This document shows, one piece after another, positions 43,861 to 51,845 of a stretch of 64,000 nucleotides of DNA. The position numbers and the translations under genes were made by a program. This DNA comes from Anaerolineaceae bacterium (lineage in GTDB: Bacteria; Chloroflexota; Anaerolineae; Anaerolineales; Anaerolineaceae): NCBI GenBank assembly GCA_002702705.1, contig PABH01000047.1:1-64000 (forward strand), given 5' to 3'. Below the pieces are notes generated by a model. It saw nothing but the letters and a program-made list of their open reading frames with translations, was not told the DNA's origin and ran no database searches. How positions within the stretch are numbered: the first letter of the stretch is position 1; every line of letters starts with the position of its first letter.

Positions 43861-44301
43861 ATGGCAATGATCAAAAAAGTTCGCGTTGATGCAAAAAGTT
43901 TGGAAGGTTTTGAAATTGAAACAACAGCAAGACAATTTAAAGCTACAATCGATCAACCTGTTTCAGGCGGTGGAAAAGACGCAGGCCCGAATCCATTGGA
44001 GTATTTATTTATGTCCTTAGCTGGCTGCATTGTAACGATTGGAAAAATCATCGTCAAACAAGAACGATTACCAGTGCAGGACATTAATGTTGTGGTTGAA
44101 GGAACATTGGATGCAGATGTCTTAATGGGTAAGTCAAATAATGGTACCCGTGCTGGGTTTAACGCAGTGACTGTAACAACAACTATAAATGGAGATCTGA
44201 CTCAGGAAGAAAAAGAACGTTTATTGGAAAGAATTGATGCTCGCTGCCCGATTTCAGATAATATTCACCAAATGACACCAATCAGTTTTGTGGTGCATTA
44301 A
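43861..44301 (+). CDS. OsmC-family peroxiredoxin-like protein
   Basis: A 146-aa OsmC/Ohr-fold protein. GPNPLEYLFMSLAGCIVTIGKIIVKQ carries the first catalytic Cys at the helix start, and RIDARCPISDNIHQMTPIS the second, so the thiol pair needed for peroxide reduction is present. Gly-rich PVSGGGKDAGPNPLEY is typical of the YhfA/OsmC branch. AGGAG lies rather far (about 12 nt) from the ATG. It precedes the NifX/MinD genes and may protect an oxygen-sensitive cofactor; a stem AACCCGCT/AGCGGGTT (44315-44374) separates the two. Confidence 0.88.
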   Translation: MAMIKKVRVDAKSLEGFEIETTARQFKATIDQPVSGGGKDAGPNPLEYLFMSLAGCIVTIGKIIVKQERLPVQDINVVVEGTLDADVLMGKSNNGTRAGFNAVTVTTTINGDLTQEEKERLLERIDARCPISDNIHQMTPISFVVH

Positions 44302-44416
44302 ACAATGGAAACAAAACCCGCTGTATTAATCCCAATTCAAATTGATCCATTCAGTTATGGTGATATAGCGGGTTGTTTCAAATCATAAACTTGATTTATT
44401 CCGGTTTGGAGGACAA

Positions 44417-44761
44417 ATGAAAATAATGGTTTCTTCTTTTTCAGAAACATCGAATGCGATGGCAAACCCTCGTTTTGGCAGATCGGATTGGCTCATCCTG
44501 TTTGATATTGAAAATAAAACCGAACAGGTTTTTCCTAATCCGGCTTCCAACCAGTCTGGTGGTGCGGGTGTTGCCGCAGCTCAATTTGTAGTGGATCAAA
44601 AAGTCGATGTTGTCATCAGTGGACACTTTGGTCCGAATGCAGCCAGTGTTTTATCAACTGCTGGTATTCAGATGATTTTATTTTCGGATGAACAACAAAC
44701 CTGCCAGCAGCTTGTGTCTGCATTTCAACAAGGGGAATTAAAAGAATTTATTCATGCCTGA
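44417..44761 (+). CDS. NifX/NifB-type iron-molybdenum cofactor-binding domain protein
   Basis: A 114-aa protein of the dinitrogenase Fe-Mo-cofactor family (PF02579-like): MANPRFGRSDWLILFDIE, NQSGGAGVAAAQFVVDQKVDVVISGHFGPNAASVL. In nitrogen fixers such proteins carry FeS/FeMo precursors; stand-alone members occur in many anaerobes beside MinD-type ATPases. No nif gene is in the window. GGAGG precedes the ATG. The 3' end overlaps the next gene by 8 nt. Confidence 0.9.
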   Translation: MKIMVSSFSETSNAMANPRFGRSDWLILFDIENKTEQVFPNPASNQSGGAGVAAAQFVVDQKVDVVISGHFGPNAASVLSTAGIQMILFSDEQQTCQQLVSAFQQGELKEFIHA

Positions 44762-45623
44762 AAAAAAACGAATTGCGTTTGCCAGTGGAAAAGGTGGGGT
44801 TGGAAAAACAACCTTAGCAACCAGCCTTGCTGTTTGTTTAGCGAAACAAGGAATCGACACGGTTTATATCGATTGTGATGTTGAAGCGCCGAACGGCTTT
44901 TTGTTTTTAAAACCGGAATTTTTAACTTCGCAAACAGTTACCGTTCCGGTTGCCGCAGTAGATTCAGGCAAGTGCAGCGCATGCGGTATCTGTGTAGAAG
45001 CCTGTCAATTTAATGCCCTGGCATTGGTTGGAAACAAATTGCTCGTTTTTAACCAGCTTTGTCACGGGTGTGGCAGTTGTATCCGTTTATGCCCTGAAGG
45101 TGCTTTATCTGAAAAACAGTACCCGGTAGGCCAACTTAATCAGGGTTTTGGACGCGAAAACATATCTTGCCTGCAAGGGAAGTTAAATATCAGTGAGCCA
45201 ATGGCATCTCCGGTCGTTCGTCAACTCAAACAGCTTACTGAACAAGAGCCTGGACAAGTCTATATTTATGATGCACCTCCCGGTGCATCGTGTACGGTTG
45301 TTGAAACCCTACAAGCTATGGATTTTGTCTACCTGGTTACCGAGCCAACTCCATTTGGACTTCACGATCTGAAGCAGATTTTAGGTGTTGTCAAATCAAT
45401 GAAAATACCCTTTGCCGTCATCATTAACCGTGATGGTATTGGTGATGATCACTTAAACCAATTTTTAGTACAAGAAAATATTCCAACAGCGTTAAGCATC
45501 CCTTATGATGACCAAATTGCAAGAGCCATTGCTTCCGGCGGAACATTATTCGATGCGTACCCGGATGACCCAAACCAATTGGAAAAACTGTATTTTGAAT
45601 TACTGCAAGGAGGGTTGGTTTAG
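44754..45623 (+). CDS. MinD-family P-loop ATPase with inserted ferredoxin domain (first of pair)
   Basis: A 289-aa ATPase. The deviant Walker A GKGGVGKTT lies near residue 13, Walker A' IDCDVEAPN, and the switch-like YDAPPGASC. A two-[4Fe-4S] ferredoxin module is inserted at about residues 75-120: CSACGICVEAC and CHGCGSCIRLCPEG. This architecture is known from COG1149-type proteins of anaerobes and is related to the Mrp/NBP35 Fe-S carriers. The start codon lies inside the preceding NifX-like gene; the next paralogue begins 3 nt after this stop. It likely forms a heterodimer with it. Confidence 0.92.
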   Translation: MPEKKRIAFASGKGGVGKTTLATSLAVCLAKQGIDTVYIDCDVEAPNGFLFLKPEFLTSQTVTVPVAAVDSGKCSACGICVEACQFNALALVGNKLLVFNQLCHGCGSCIRLCPEGALSEKQYPVGQLNQGFGRENISCLQGKLNISEPMASPVVRQLKQLTEQEPGQVYIYDAPPGASCTVVETLQAMDFVYLVTEPTPFGLHDLKQILGVVKSMKIPFAVIINRDGIGDDHLNQFLVQENIPTALSIPYDDQIARAIASGGTLFDAYPDDPNQLEKLYFELLQGGLV

Positions 45624-45626
45624 ATC

Positions 45627-46541
45627 ATGGCAAAATTATTTCAAATGGTTGTATTAAGCGGAAAAGGCGGAGTCGGCAAAACAAATGTGGCTGCGGCATT
45701 AGCTTATCAGGCTGCTAACGCTGATCAGATTCCAGGTGCAGTGGTGGTAGATGCGGATGTTGATGCCGCTAACATGAGCCTCTTGCTGCAACCCAGATTA
45801 AGTCAAAAAGAAGATTTTTTTGGTGGCAAGGTTGCAAAAATCAATCCTGAGATTTGTGAAGGATGCGGCTTGTGTGCTGAAGTGTGCCGGTATGATGCCG
45901 TACTTTATCAGGGAACATCATATCAAATCAACGAATCTGCCTGTGAAGGTTGTGCTGCTTGTTATTATGCCTGCCCACAGCAAGCCATCGCCATGCTTCC
46001 CCATCAGGATGGCCAATGGGCCTTATCATATACCCGGTTTGGACCTTTATTACACGCGGAACTATTTCCTGGCAAAGATAATTCGGGTAAACTGGTTAGC
46101 TTAATTCGCCACCGGGCCAAATTGACCGCAGACCAACATCGTTTCCCGTTGATTCTGATTGATGGACCACCTGGAATTGGCTGCCCAGTTATTTCCGCCA
46201 GCACCGGAGTTAACCTGGGGCTGATTGTAACCGAACCTAGTGTGGCAGCCATTCACGACCTGGAACGTATACACCAAACTTTGAAGCACTTTCAAATCCC
46301 AGCCGTTTTATGCATCAACAAAGTGGGCATGTACCAACCTGCTTATTTGGAAATACTGGACTACGCACAATACCACAATATACCTGTATTGGGGCAAATT
46401 CCTTTTGATAATGCCATCCCACAAGCAATGGTAAACGGGCAGGTTGTGCAAGAATATGCCCCGCAAACACCAGCAGCCATTGCAATGCGTGCGCTTTGGG
46501 TTGGGTTACTACCATATTTATCATATAAGGGAACCGGATGA
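45627..46541 (+). CDS. MinD-family P-loop ATPase with inserted ferredoxin domain (second of pair)
   Basis: A 304-aa paralogue of the preceding protein: SGKGGVGKTN Walker A, VDADVDAAN, and IDGPPGIGCPV. The inserted ferredoxin has CEGCGLCAEVC and CEGCAACYYACPQQA. The ATPase core diverges from its partner in the loop after the insert. The last 4 nt overlap the radical SAM gene (ATGA), so the cluster is translationally coupled. Confidence 0.92.
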   Translation: MAKLFQMVVLSGKGGVGKTNVAAALAYQAANADQIPGAVVVDADVDAANMSLLLQPRLSQKEDFFGGKVAKINPEICEGCGLCAEVCRYDAVLYQGTSYQINESACEGCAACYYACPQQAIAMLPHQDGQWALSYTRFGPLLHAELFPGKDNSGKLVSLIRHRAKLTADQHRFPLILIDGPPGIGCPVISASTGVNLGLIVTEPSVAAIHDLERIHQTLKHFQIPAVLCINKVGMYQPAYLEILDYAQYHNIPVLGQIPFDNAIPQAMVNGQVVQEYAPQTPAAIAMRALWVGLLPYLSYKGTG

Positions 46542-47482
46542 TTACCTTTGGTCCGTTAACTTCCCGCCGATTAGGGTACAGCTTAGGCGTTAATCATATA
46601 CCTGCAAAATATTGTTCCTATGATTGTATTTATTGCCAGGTGGGACCAACTAAACCGTTAACAATCAAACGTCAAATTTTTTACGACACACAAACCATTC
46701 AAACGGAAATCGAACAGAAATTACTTGAAGTGAAACAACAGGGCAAAACCGTTGATGCGATCACTTTTGTTCCGGATGGAGAACCCTGTTTAGATCAAAA
46801 ATTAGGGGAACACCTACAAGCTTTAAAACCGCTTGGAATCAAATTAGCGGTTATCACAAATGCTACATTCTTAATGTTTCCTGAGGTACGGGAAGCACTT
46901 TTTTCAGCCGATTGGGTTTCCGTCAAAGTAGACAGCGTTAATGAAAGAATATGGCACAAAATCAACCGTCCTTATGGACGGTTAAATATGGAACATGTTT
47001 TGGATGGAATCACCGCTTTTAGTAAAGAATTTCTTGGTGATTTGGTAACGGAAACGATGCTGGTGCAAGAAATTAACGATGACGGTCAGATGCTTAAACA
47101 AACGGCAAAGTTTATTAGCAGCTTAAAGGTGAAATGTGCATATATTAGCGTTCCAAACCGTCCACCCATGGAAGCCTGGGTTCACCCGCCAGATGCAAAG
47201 CGTTTAACGGCCGCTTATCATGTATTTAGAAAAAAAATTGATTCAGTTGAGATCTTAGGTTTGGTAGAACCCAAACCCTTTGTTGGTTCATCTGGTATTC
47301 GGGAAGTTTTACTTTCCACGGCAGCTGTCCACCCCTTGGATCAACAAACGGTTCAAAGCATGTTGGACGAGGCTGGCGTAGGTTGGGATGTGGTGGACCG
47401 TCTACTCAGTGATGGGGATTTGAAAAAAGCTGTTTATATGAATAATGTATTTTTTTTGACAAATTTAACAAAACGACGTTAA
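46538..47482 (+). CDS. Radical SAM protein (COG0731-like)
   Basis: A 314-aa radical SAM enzyme. The cluster motif CSYDCIYC (C-x3-C-x2-C) lies near residue 28. The TIM-barrel strands include VDAITFVPDGEPCLD (glycine-type SAM-binding stretch) and LAVITNATFLM. A C-terminal winged-helix-like tail (PLDQQTVQSMLDEAGVG) is present; similar proteins are annotated Fe-S oxidoreductases with a distant link to wyosine synthesis. It is the last gene of the NifX/MinD cluster. The substrate is unknown; a maturase role is inferred from context. Confidence 0.88.
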   Translation: MITFGPLTSRRLGYSLGVNHIPAKYCSYDCIYCQVGPTKPLTIKRQIFYDTQTIQTEIEQKLLEVKQQGKTVDAITFVPDGEPCLDQKLGEHLQALKPLGIKLAVITNATFLMFPEVREALFSADWVSVKVDSVNERIWHKINRPYGRLNMEHVLDGITAFSKEFLGDLVTETMLVQEINDDGQMLKQTAKFISSLKVKCAYISVPNRPPMEAWVHPPDAKRLTAAYHVFRKKIDSVEILGLVEPKPFVGSSGIREVLLSTAAVHPLDQQTVQSMLDEAGVGWDVVDRLLSDGDLKKAVYMNNVFFLTNLTKRR

Positions 47483-47588: not shown

Positions 47589-48926
47589 ATGAATCGACGT
47601 GACTTTTTAAAAAAAGCGGGGATACTTGCTAGTGCTGTTCCTTTAGCGGCTTGTGCAGCAAAAGCACAACAAGAAACGGAAACAGAAACACGCTCTTCCA
47701 ATAATCAAAACGTCTTAAAAGTAGTTCAGCAAAAACATTTTATTGCTGGTTACGATCAGTGGTTTGATGAGGAATTTGTAATTAATTGGGGTGAAAAAAA
47801 TGGGGTGAAGGTTGAGGTAACCCACGCCAGTTTTGGAGACTTATTCCCCATCGCAACCGGTTTCGTGGCTATGCAAACCGGTTGTGATGTATTTGCTTTT
47901 CCCTCTCCTCCCATGGCGTTTGAAGACGATGTTGTGGACTTGAGTGATATTGGCAAGGAACTTGAAAATTCATTTGGCCCCATGTTACCGCAGGCAAAAA
48001 ATTGTCTCTATAATCCCCAAACCCAAAAATGGACCGGTATCTCCGATCACTGGGTGCCCCTCGTCACCAATTGGCGAAGTGACCTGTGGGAAGAAGTTGA
48101 ACCCGGTTCCTCCCCACAGACCTGGGATGACATTTTGCGTGTTGGCCGCAAATTAAAACGGTTGGGACATCCAATCGGATTGGGGATGTCCACGGATTTG
48201 GATAGTAATATTGCTTTAAATGGTTTGTTAAACGCTTATGGTTCTGTTATCCAGGATGAAAAAGGACTCGTTACCGTTAATTCCGCTGAAACGGTTGCCG
48301 CATTAACCCTTGGAGCAGCCTTATATAAAGAGACCATGCAGCCAGAGATATTAGCCTGGAATGCATCCTCAAACAATCAATTTTTACTGGGATCAAAAGG
48401 GTCTTTTGCCATGAATGCTGTTTCCGTCACGCGTGTTGCTGAAAAAAATGATCCCGACTTGGCAAAAGTAATTGCCCTCTCCCCGCCACCCGCTGGACCG
48501 GTTCAAAGAATGACCCCCGCAAATGTTGTCAGTGTTTATACCGTATGGAAATTTTCCAAACAAATAGATCTTGCAAAACAGTTTATTAAAGATTTGATTT
48601 TAGCGGCCGAAACCGCTTTCCAAAAAGGTGAACTTTATAATTATCCTTCATTTCCTGGTGCAGTAAAAAACCTGGAAGCCGCATACGATAAGGAGCCCAA
48701 ATACGCATTCCTTAAAACGGCACCGGAATGGGTGTGTAATGTGGGTTACCCGGGAAATGCAAATGCTGTCACGAATGAAATTTTCGACAACTATTTGGTA
48801 CCGAAAGCGTTTTCTTTGGTGGCTATTGGCACCCTTACTCCTGAAGAAGGAAGCCTTTGGTTGGAAAAAGAAGTTAATAAACTGGTAGCGCGGTGGAATG
48901 TTCGCAATATTGCCAACAATTCATAA
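47589..48926 (+). CDS. Tat-type lipoprotein, ABC sugar substrate-binding protein (family 1)
   Basis: A 445-aa extracellular solute-binding protein. The twin-arginine signal [10 protein letters not shown] precedes a lipobox PLAAC (Cys22), so it is probably exported folded and lipidated. The family-1 SBP fold is supported by [26 protein letters not shown], and [17 protein letters not shown]. No permease or ATPase genes are linked; instead the next gene (18 nt away) is a chemoreceptor, suggesting that this protein feeds ligand to it. An oligosaccharide ligand is a family-level guess. Confidence 0.88.
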
Positions 48927-48943
48927 CAGAGGAGATTGCGAAA

Positions 48944-51283
48944 ATGAAAAAATTATTCTCTTGGATCCAAACCAGCCTCGTTAAACAAGTAAGTTTTGCT
49001 TTGGGTGTTATGATCACCATTTTGGTGGTTGTGTTGGTAATGACATTTTTTATGGTTCGTGCTCAACGACCCAATAGTTTAGTCATTAGTATGGCTGCTC
49101 AACAGCGCCAGTTAGGGGAAAGAATCGGTTCACTTGCTTTACGTGCTGTTCAAGGTGATTGGCAAGCCGCAAAAGAATTAAATTTGAGTTTGGTGGAATT
49201 AGATAAAATCTTAAATGGTTTAAGATATGGGGACAGTGAACTGGGTTTACCAGCCGCTTCAGCCGAATTTGACATTTTATTGGCAGATATCCAAACAACT
49301 TGGGAACCACAGAAAACAGAGATTCAAAGTATTTTAGAAAACACACAAACCATTGTTGTTATCGATCAATTGGTTGGCGGAATTAATCAGAAATCGACCG
49401 CTTTGGCTTCCTTAGCTACGGAATACAATGAAATGGTTAGTTCTTCATTATTTAAATCTCCACAACATTTAGAGCGATCCAGTAAACAAGCAGAGTTAAG
49501 TTTAGCGATCGCTCAAAACGCACTTTCGGTGGTAAACGGACAAACGGAAGCAATATCTCCCATGTTAGAAGCTGCAGATCAATTTGACCAAAATTTAACC
49601 ATTTTTGTTGAAGGCAATCAAGGTCTTTTTATTCCGGCTGCAGAAGGAGAGCAGTTAGAACAACTACAATCCATTCAAAGAGTTTGGACATCCTGGTATG
49701 CCGAAATTAACACCTTAGCCAACGCAGCGAATACGTATGCACAACTCCAAGATTCTGCCCGCAATTTATCCACAAACAGTTTAATTTTAACTTCCCTTTC
49801 ACAAAAAGCCTTGGATTACTTTACAAACGAGAGTTTGAAAAAAATGGACACCCTTCAAATTCTTCTTTCAGCCAGCGGGTTATTTGTAATATTGATGGCC
49901 TTCTTTATTGCCTATCTGATTCGTCAATCCTTAAAACCACTGACCAAAATTGAAGAAGTCGCCTATTCGATCAGCCACGAGGATTTATTAATCTTAAAAG
50001 ATACTTTGTCCACCTTCGCCAATCAAGATTTAACACAATCCATTAATTTAAAACCTCGAAATGTATTATTAAACCGGCAAGATGAAATAGGACGGTTAGC
50101 ACAAGCTTTTCAACAAATGATCGACAATTTGGTGGATACCGGCCTTTCGGTAGAAAAGATGCGCGGAAAATTAAATGAAGTGATGTCATTCGTGCAGCAG
50201 AATACACAAGAAGTAAGCCGCGCATCCATTTTGATGAACCAGGCTGCAGAATCCTCTTATCTAATCAGTGGTCAAATTGCCCAAACTATGCAAGAAGTAT
50301 CCGCTGGCGTAACCCAACAAGTAAACCAGGTTACCCATACAACCCACTCATTGGACCAAATGGTTCAATCCATTCAAGGTATGGCAAGCGGAGCCCAAGA
50401 CCAGGCCACAGCAATTAATACCGTTTCAACCCAAAATCAGCAATTGTTTGATGTGATCCAACGGGTAATTAAGAACGTAGGCGAAAGTGCAAACAGCGCC
50501 ACCAGCACAAAAGAAGCCGCCCAATCTGGTACCAAGGTAGTTGAACAGCATATCACCGGAATGCAGCAAATCCGCAACCAAGTTACCGCCTCGATGGGTA
50601 AAGTCAATTTAATGGGTGAAAAGTCCTCCCAAATCAACAAGATGTTGGAAACGATTGAAGATATCGCAGCCCAAACCAATTTATTGGCCCTAAATGCAGC
50701 CATCGAAGCTGCCCGCGCAGGCGAACATGGGAAAGGGTTTGCCGTCGTTGCCGATGAAGTTCGAAAATTAGCTGACCGTTCCGCAAATGCAACCAAAGAT
50801 ATCGCGTCATTGGTCTCCGATGTTATGAATGCCGTAACGGACGCCGTTACATCCATGTCCGAAAGCGTAAGTGGCGTTGAAACAGGCACCCTGCAAGCCC
50901 AGAGCGCTGGAGATGCCCTGGCAACGATTTTAAAAGAAGCAAACCTAGTAAAAGAACAAACGGAACAGATTACCAAAGCAGCACAAGAAATGCAGCGAAT
51001 TTCCGAAATTGTAGTAAATGAAACAGCATCCGTATCTGCCGTAATTGAAGAAAACACAGCGGCCACGGAGGAAATGTCCGCTACTTCCGCTGAAATATCA
51101 CAGACGATGGAAAATGTAGCTAGCATCAGTGAAGAAAATTCCGCTGCTGTTGAAGAAATCACCGCCTCTGCTGATGAAGTGCGTCAAAAGGCCCAGGAAG
51201 TAGCAACCGCTTCCTCGGAGTTGTCTAAAAAAGCGCAGGAAACAGAAACATTGGTATTCCAGTTTAAACTGAAGAACGAATAA
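48944..51283 (+). CDS. Methyl-accepting chemotaxis protein with PilJ-type sensor
   Basis: A 779-aa chemoreceptor from the ATG at 48944 (GAGGAG upstream; the frame extends to 48893 with no ribosome site). TM1 is at about 15-38. The extracytoplasmic domain opens with [14 protein letters not shown], the PilJ/type-IV-pili transducer pattern. TM2 lies at about 310-330 and is followed by a HAMP region with an insertion. The signalling hairpin carries the hypervariable-free core [38 protein letters not shown]. Methylation-type Glu/Gln pairs are present. No CheA/W gene is in the window. It forms a two-gene unit with the preceding binding protein. Confidence 0.93.
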
Positions 51284-51422: not shown

Positions 51423-51845
51423 ATGACCATTCGTTTTCATAAAGTGTGGCTTTTGGGGATATTGATGATTTTGGTGCTGACTGCCTGCCAACCTGCTGAG
51501 CCTTTGGTTAGTATCGAAAAACAAATCGAAGAAGGTAAATACCGGGTTGTTACTGTACAGGAATTGGCAGGAATGTTAACCGAGAAAGATTTCTTTCTGG
51601 TAAATGTACATATCCCGTGGGAAGGCGACATTCCTCAAACAGATTTACGTTTGGCCTATGATCAGATTGATCAAAATTTAGACCAATTACCTGAAAAAAA
51701 AGAAAAAATCCTGGTGTATTGTTACACCTCCGGCATGGCAAAAAGTGCTGTTAAAACACTGTTGGCACAGGGATATACCGATGTGTGGATGCTGGATGGC
51801 GGTACCGGCCAGTGGGTAGCAGAAGGGTACACCCTGGAAAAATAA
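51423..51845 (+). CDS. Rhodanese-domain lipoprotein
   Basis: A 140-aa lipoprotein (lipobox LTAC, Cys21) with a single rhodanese domain. VTVQELAGML and FFLVNVHIPWEGDIP are the substrate-proximal strands, and the active loop is VYCYTSGMAKSA with the catalytic Cys in the usual place. Single-domain extracytoplasmic rhodaneses bind or relay sulfane sulfur. AGGAG precedes the ATG. It could accept sulfur outside the cell; no partner is obvious. Confidence 0.9.
   Translation: MTIRFHKVWLLGILMILVLTACQPAEPLVSIEKQIEEGKYRVVTVQELAGMLTEKDFFLVNVHIPWEGDIPQTDLRLAYDQIDQNLDQLPEKKEKILVYCYTSGMAKSAVKTLLAQGYTDVWMLDGGTGQWVAEGYTLEK

Follow-up and report, generated by a model that had tools for sequence, protein, structure and literature searches.

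The orange protein complex and a related locus

The closest described counterpart of the locus considered here is the orange protein (ORP) complex of Desulfovibrio vulgaris, in which Orp3 and Orp4, related proteins that each carry a pair of [4Fe-4S] ferredoxin motifs, are encoded together with Orp8 (ORP) and Orp9 (MrpORP), and in which Orp4 and Orp8 co-purify with Orp3; Fe-S transfer from MrpORP has also been described in Desulfovibrio (PMC6345978). A 2019 review still described the orange protein as a protein of unknown function (PMC6650914). The Pyrococcus protein IssA is a thioferrate store that, in vitro, rebuilds the clusters of ferredoxin (PMC5524996). The locus that we compare with these systems lies in a stretch of 64,000 nucleotides (the window) from contig PABH01000047.1 of an Anaerolineaceae bacterium, whose assembly (GCA_002702705.1) comprises 5,885,093 bases in 74 contigs and is 96.77% complete. 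It codes, on the forward strand, for a small NifX-like protein of the PF02579 family, two ferredoxin-bearing ATPases and a radical S-adenosylmethionine (SAM) enzyme.

The locus is a form of the ORP complex, a known and functionally unexplained gene set of anaerobes, and the novelty that an earlier note on this DNA had implied for the system as a whole falls away, since its core is that complex. What goes beyond the examined literature is the co-occurrence of a particular radical-SAM family with the ATPases and the presence of an invariant ninth cysteine in both of the latter. Neither the link to the radical-SAM subclade nor the NifH-type cysteine was met in the portions considered of PMC6345978, PMC3897727, PMC4672049, PMC5524996, PMC9431491, PMC6650914, PMC10084766 and PMC9012536. 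Likewise, the literature examined, in part, contained no report joining the orange protein with this radical-SAM family, although the 2011 J. Bacteriol. paper on ORP may say more.

The ORP-type core and its paired ATPases

The first gene of the core (44417-44761) specifies a protein of 114 aa (Pfam Nitro_FeMo-Co, 60.6 bits) with the motif RFGR, a version of the [RHK]FG[RH] signature present in 79 of the 84 members of its family. The family profile (A3) matches the structure of ORP (PDB 2wfb, E 4e-20), that of MTH1175 (1eo1, E 9.4e-21) and four further PF02579 structures. The match to 2wfb, taken with the published description of Orp3, Orp4 and Orp8, makes it very probable that this protein is of the ORP type and that it and the two ATPases encoded after it constitute an ORP core. 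Because the NifX-like protein is closest to ORP-type structures and genes for Fe-S assembly recur around it (see below), the metal-sulphide or Fe-S handling suggested by the earlier note gains support, and it is likely that the system handles metal sulphides in some form.

The two ATPases, ATPase-1 (44754-45623, 289 aa) and ATPase-2 (45627-46541, 304 aa), are Orp3/Orp4-like proteins with a MinD/NifH-type fold (Pfam CbiA/ParA) and an inserted two-cluster ferredoxin (Pfam Fer4). Both have the deviant Walker A motif SGKGGVGKT and two CX2CX2CX3C ferredoxin motifs, as had been read from the sequence before. The eight ferredoxin cysteines of each are invariant: Cys 74, 77, 80, 84, 103, 106, 109 and 113 of ATPase-1 (44973-45092) in 82/82 aligned homologues, and Cys 77, 80, 83, 87, 106, 109, 112 and 116 of ATPase-2 (45855-45974) in 60/60, these counts being drawn from 95 loci of which 13 had no ATPase-1 and 35 no ATPase-2 that passed the start and length filter of our script. 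The folds nearest to a model of the pair are those of ApbC, MinD, NifH and BchL (Z 23 to 25.5, and also by Foldseek), and among 45 PDB matches of the ATPase-2 profile none has a best stretch spanning both the ATPase and the ferredoxin parts. The NCBIfam models of the established families score far lower than their cut-offs, namely 61.9 and 70.8 bits for the two ATPases with archaeal MinD (cut-off 201.75), 42 and 58.8 bits with bacterial MinD (212.9), 48.5 and 53.9 bits with MrpORP (450), and 32.1 bits for ATPase-1 with ApbC (348).

The two ATPases are strictly paired. Among 41 genomes of the order that were searched, 15 carry either ATPase and all 15 carry both, the pair being missing from the other 26, and the two genes overlap in 42 of the 56 pairs that could be measured with starts picked by script. 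Their linkage hence exceeds chance, and the idea that two non-identical ATPases work together, put forward in the earlier note, is strengthened by this pairing and by the co-purification of Orp3, Orp4 and Orp8 in D. vulgaris (PMC6345978). The pair recurs across bacteria and archaea. A search with two ATPase motifs led to 307 confirmed relatives, of which the best 80 (the named loci) were kept; the genes within 10 kb of ATPase-2 in these include ATPase-1 in 74, ORP in 62, Mrp in 34, the radical-SAM enzyme in 13, a MIP18-type protein in 8 and OsmC in 0. Many of these loci are binned metagenome contigs, the ends of which can hide neighbours; in the 27 named loci with nearly full flanks, the respective counts are 26, 26, 18, 4, 1 and 0. 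The 15 loci of the order have ATPase-1 and ORP throughout, the radical-SAM gene in 10, MIP18 in 9, Mrp in 5 and OsmC in 2. More widely, ATPase-2 is found in 53/180 genomes of the class and 17/350 of the phylum, where scoring was restricted to the top 12 or 6 ATPase candidates of each genome. We also considered a natural fusion of ATPase-1 with ATPase-2 in three long open reading frames (ORFs; loci L053, L071 and L120) and rejected it, as each has a single ATPase domain and an N-terminal part that matches neither ATPase.

A NifH-type cysteine in both ATPases

In addition to the eight ferredoxin ligands, each ATPase has a ninth invariant cysteine at the Walker-B aspartate+7 position: Cys180 of ATPase-1 (codon TGT, 45291-45293; 82/82 homologues) and Cys186 of ATPase-2 (codon TGC, 46182-46184; 60/60). 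Profile alignments of both proteins with four NifH-type sequences from genomes of the class (a fifth locus yielded none) place it on the cysteine of the NifH motif DVLGDVVC, which is a ligand of the bridging [4Fe-4S] cluster (Cys132 of Azotobacter NifH). NifH has two cluster cysteines per subunit. In ATPase-2, the loop PGKDNSGKLV (46068-46097; PGxxNSGKLV in the family) aligns with PGVGCAGRGV of NifH in such a manner that Asn152 replaces the other of these cysteines. Of the 36 Mrp proteins of the same loci, 35 have an aspartate where the ATPases have their ninth cysteine, and the motif is unreadable in the remaining one. In a heterodimer of the two ATPases, two cysteines would meet where the subunits join, amounting to half of a NifH site, and such a site might suit a cluster that is open-faced or transferable. 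This invariant cysteine, one in each ATPase, thereby offers a handle on the system, in that it predicts a metal site at the putative heterodimer interface.

This resemblance does not extend to a nitrogenase. No NifDK-type partner (PF00148) was found in the genome, and in the class PF00148 is uncorrelated with ATPase-2, occurring above the cut-off in 3/53 genomes with the ATPase against 9/127 without it (Fisher p 1), where some of the 12 hits may be non-nitrogenase proteins as the family also takes in chlorophyll-type reductases. No link to nitrogenase is seen, and the independence from it that had been proposed earlier is supported. The anaerobe control, POR (PF01558), is found in 177/180 genomes of the class and does not discriminate.

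A radical-SAM subclade that accompanies the ATPases

The last gene of the run (46538-47482) codes for a radical-SAM enzyme of 314 aa (Pfam Radical_SAM, 54.6 bits) with the cluster motif CSYDCIYC (Cys 26, 30 and 33; 46613-46636), which is the C-x3-C-x2-C arrangement noticed before. No further cysteine is invariant in the 19 homologues compared, and we therefore expect no auxiliary cluster. In the order, its family (A4) is present in 12/15 ATPase-positive genomes versus 2/26 negative ones (Fisher 4e-6, which, like the further Fisher values here, ignores the shared ancestry of genomes), and in 10 of these 12 the gene lies no more than about 8 kb from ATPase-2. In the class it occurs in 35/180 genomes, comprising 28/53 with ATPase-2 and 7/127 without (Fisher 4e-12), and in 14 of the 28 with both it is within 7 kb of ATPase-2. 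Excluding the genome of the window leaves values of 1e-5 for the order and 1e-11 for the class. By the earlier note's own criterion, its reading would have failed had the ATPases, the NifX-like protein and the radical-SAM enzyme seldom occurred together in related genomes; in view of the strict pairing of the ATPases, the neighborhood counts above and both of these excesses, this is not the case.

In a phylogenetic tree (which omits L072 and L050, too short, and a second copy from G039, not recovered), the window protein falls in a separate subclade marked by the motifs SLGxNxIPxK and, in most members, VPDGEP. The subclade is represented in 18 genomes of the class sample, 16 of which have ATPase-2 (Fisher 5e-8); the exceptions are G071, where an ATPase-like fragment sits at the start of a contig, and G160, whose matches are all of ferredoxin size. 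Further groups of this family seen in the class have the motifs CNWNC, CNYNC and SWRLG, and ATPase-2 accompanies 1/6, 6/6 and 5/5 of them respectively. A profile of the subclade (A8) detects it in 4/17 phylum genomes with ATPase-2 and in 0/333 others (Fisher 4e-6, or 8e-5 when the genome of the window is excluded), and its threshold separates the subclade from the rest of the family, since the other family members in G016 and G035 are negative with it. A hand count over all samples gives 24 distinct carriers of the subclade, 22 of which have ATPase-2, and the two genes lie no more than about 8 kb apart in 11 (G000, G018, G008, G039, G188, G068, G119, G130, G184, G290 and G343). In the named set, the subclade gene is 35-70 nt 3' of ATPase-2 in the Bathyarchaeota bins L072 (by motif only) and L077 and in the Proteiniphilum bin L097; L054 and G188 barely differ and could come from a single organism sampled twice. 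This subclade, linked to the ATPases in Chloroflexota and exemplified in archaeal and Bacteroidota bins, thus provides a second handle.

The fold of the radical-SAM enzyme points in several directions. Its model (pLDDT 89.8) has NifB as the first Foldseek match, and VIA-align gives about equal Z values of 18-22 for the PFL activase, NifB, RlmN, TYW1 and viperin; all its NCBIfam hits fall far below cut-off. In NifB, additional clusters are held by cysteines that lie outside the radical-SAM motif. No such additional cysteine is invariant in the 19 homologues, and in view of the VIA-align tie with the PFL activase, RlmN and TYW1 we do not claim the enzyme as a NifB.

A proposed mechanism and its alternatives

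Starting from the pairing of the ATPase genes, the conservation of their cysteines and the co-occurrence and linkage of the radical-SAM gene, all direct observations, we tentatively favor a NifH-like ATPase heterodimer acting on a cluster held by ORP, with the radical-SAM enzyme as an accessory; this falls somewhat short of an even chance. In this organism, the two ferredoxin-bearing ATPases would form a face-to-face heterodimer of the MinD/NifH kind, which electrons could enter via the four inserted [4Fe-4S] clusters. ATP binding and hydrolysis would then drive the low-potential reduction, loading or unloading, whichever the direction may be, of an anionic metal-sulphide cluster on ORP, for which ORP is the proposed carrier. 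The site of this action would presumably be the meeting point of Cys180 and Cys186, the Walker-B cysteines of the two subunits, at their interface, and the radical-SAM enzyme might modify a protein or a cluster of the same pathway.

Several points weigh against this proposal. The read-through model of the ATPase pair has a mean pLDDT of 90.7 and a pTM of 0.61, so that its domains are good and their orientation unreliable (the alignment behind it was made without single ATPase-1 rows, and the ATPase-1 half rests on five rows); hence, we make no claim regarding the interface from it. The second cluster cysteine of NifH (PGVGC) is not kept, being Asn152 in ATPase-2 and matched by no invariant cysteine in ATPase-1 in the profile alignment. 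The Fisher tests that link the radical-SAM enzyme to the ATPases treat related genomes as independent, and this family is near the pair in just 13/80 wider loci and 4/27 with nearly full flanks, which makes it an optional part. The joined Mrp-PF02579 protein MrpORP (Orp9) was not found in the assembly, and no client enzyme of the ATPase/ORP system was identified in this analysis. With regard to clients, ATPase-2 is retained in the approximately 1-Mb genomes G336, G343 and G408, the first two of which also have the radical-SAM subclade; such genomes would yield a short list of candidates.

The best-surviving alternative, to which we assign perhaps one chance in a few, is a general role in iron-sulphur storage and delivery, with ORP as an IssA-like scaffold of inorganic iron sulphide that the ATPases load or mobilize for ordinary Fe-S assembly and the radical-SAM enzyme as a frequent client or bystander. 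IssA, which has the same PF02579 domain, sets a precedent in its thioferrate storage and rebuilding of ferredoxin clusters in vitro (PMC5524996), and the recurrent neighbors Mrp, NifU_N, MIP18, Fur and FeoB would fit such a role; however, the window protein lacks the long cationic glycine-rich tail of IssA, and two ATPases with four ferredoxin clusters are not required for storage alone.

We consider it unlikely that the pair is instead a low-potential reductase delivering electrons, at the expense of ATP, to a separate enzyme, possibly the radical-SAM protein, with ORP as a regulatory or redox partner and not a carrier. The NifH-type cysteine, the four ferredoxin clusters and the tie of the fold between MinD, ApbC, NifH and BchL are all compatible with this, yet it is ORP that is found with the pair in 62/80 loci, as opposed to 13/80 for the radical-SAM gene, and no other redox enzyme was observed with such frequency. 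About as doubtful is a version in which the system acts as in the favored mechanism and the radical-SAM enzyme is an RNA modifier of the TYW1/RlmN kind, sharing with the ORP genes only neighborhood and regulation. The folds of TYW1 and RlmN do score level with that of NifB, and TrmO, of a tRNA-methyltransferase family, is encoded in 9/109 loci, in L041 and L048 directly 3' of ATPase-2; against this stand the 22 of 24 subclade genomes that have ATPase-2 and the NCBIfam models of TYW1 and RlmN, which are far below cut-off or give no score. Cell-division positioning, in which MinD-like ATPases would place the septum as has been hypothesized for Desulfovibrio (PMC4672049, PMC6345978), is highly improbable despite MinD being among the nearest folds, for all nine of the conserved cysteines in each ATPase are invariant, the annotated recurrent neighbors are metal and Fe-S genes (with no search aimed at division genes) and the pair is missing from 26/41 relatives in the order.

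A bolder reading is a nitrogenase-independent pathway paralleling NifB, NifX and NifH, in which the radical-SAM enzyme, the ORP carrier and the NifH-like heterodimer would, in anaerobes among both bacteria and archaea, assemble or complete a metal-sulphide cofactor that has yet to be described. We regard this as a long shot.

Gene order and neighborhood

The earlier note had described five co-directional genes, and its junctions proved exact when the ORFs were re-read: the ORP and ATPase-1 genes overlap by 8 nt, a gap of 3 nt separates ATPase-1 from ATPase-2, ATPase-2 overlaps the radical-SAM gene by 4 nt (ATGA), and only the two ATPase genes lie between those for ORP and the radical-SAM enzyme. 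A scan for promoters and terminators gave no more sites than shuffled sequence (7 versus 9.6 and 6 versus 4.5), and hence co-transcription is deduced from gene spacing alone. The first of the five genes, for an OsmC-family protein (43861-44301; Pfam OsmC, 65.9 bits), is 115 nt upstream of the ORP gene. The note had cast it as part of the system, yet OsmC is near the pair in merely 2/15 loci of the order and 0/80 wider loci, so that a five-gene unit is not supported and OsmC is probably a neighbor outside the conserved module. The intergenic region between them has an inverted repeat with a long loop (AACCCGCT/AGCGGGTT, 44313-44375), which may split two transcripts.

Among the families that recur, by plain count, in 109 loci are Mrp, NifU_N, MIP18, DUF5320 and DUF134, another NifX-like protein (of the MrpORP-domain type) and a sigma-54 activator, together with PadR, Fur, FeoB, an iron-dependent repressor and a protein that we label ZIP. 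DUF364, CGGC, TrmO, an MBL-fold protein (21 loci) and an ARMT1-like phosphatase (10 loci) also recur, the last two with no obvious role. The MIP18-type gene near the pair in 9/15 loci of the order is missing at the window locus. In L041 (11184-11642) and L048, the TrmO-family gene occupies the slot that elsewhere belongs to the radical-SAM gene. MobB (PF03205) is encoded near the ORP cluster in two distant genomes (L180 7929-8585 and L189 15923-16660, of G343 and G184), a possible hint of molybdenum that we set aside as two genomes are too few for an argument.

Downstream of the locus, the window encodes a solute-binding protein (SBP_bac_1, 47589-48926) with a twin-arginine and lipobox-like start, the 3' end of whose gene is overlapped by an ORF (48893-51283) that we read from its sequence as chemotaxis-receptor-like; the two (47589-51283) could be a chemosensory pair. 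They are followed by a small, lipoprotein-like rhodanese-domain protein (51423-51845).

Comparison with known systems

The locus parallels several systems without coinciding with any one of them. With NifB and NifX it shares a radical-SAM protein beside a PF02579 protein and the first Foldseek match, and it differs in the tied fold matches of its enzyme and the mere three invariant cysteines. With NifH and BchL, the ATPases share the fold, the cysteine in the same alignment column and the loop comparable to PGVGCAGRGV; they differ in having an inserted ferredoxin, no second cluster cysteine and two different subunits, in a genome without nitrogenase. Mrp, ApbC and NBP35 are likewise P-loop ATPases of Fe-S metabolism with a deviant Walker A motif, and ApbC is among the top fold matches, but Mrp has aspartate where the ATPases have their ninth cysteine and the MrpORP and ApbC scores are far under the NCBIfam cut-offs. 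IssA has the same domain (PF02579/IPR003731) as the window ORP and is distinguished by its tail of 70 residues (PMC5524996), absent from the 114-aa window protein.

The assembly holds only two PF02579 genes, neither joined to an ATPase, and two Mrp proteins of 368 and 346 aa, both without a PF02579 domain. The second PF02579 gene is a lone ORF of 134 aa on contig 30 (L001 1462-1866) with a His-rich middle stretch. As no joined MrpORP was found, the locus is a variant and not the five-protein complex (Orp3, Orp4, the small Fe-S protein Orp5, Orp8 and Orp9/MrpORP). A Mo-Cu-S cluster bound by ORP counts among the features of the described complex. The likeness to that complex lies in the two related ATPases with two [4Fe-4S] motifs each beside an ORP-type PF02579 protein, the ATPases being matched to Orp3 and Orp4 (DVU2103 and DVU2104) by published description. 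In place of the two divergent operons of the Desulfovibrio complex, the Anaerolineaceae locus forms one co-directional run and has a radical-SAM gene in the operon.

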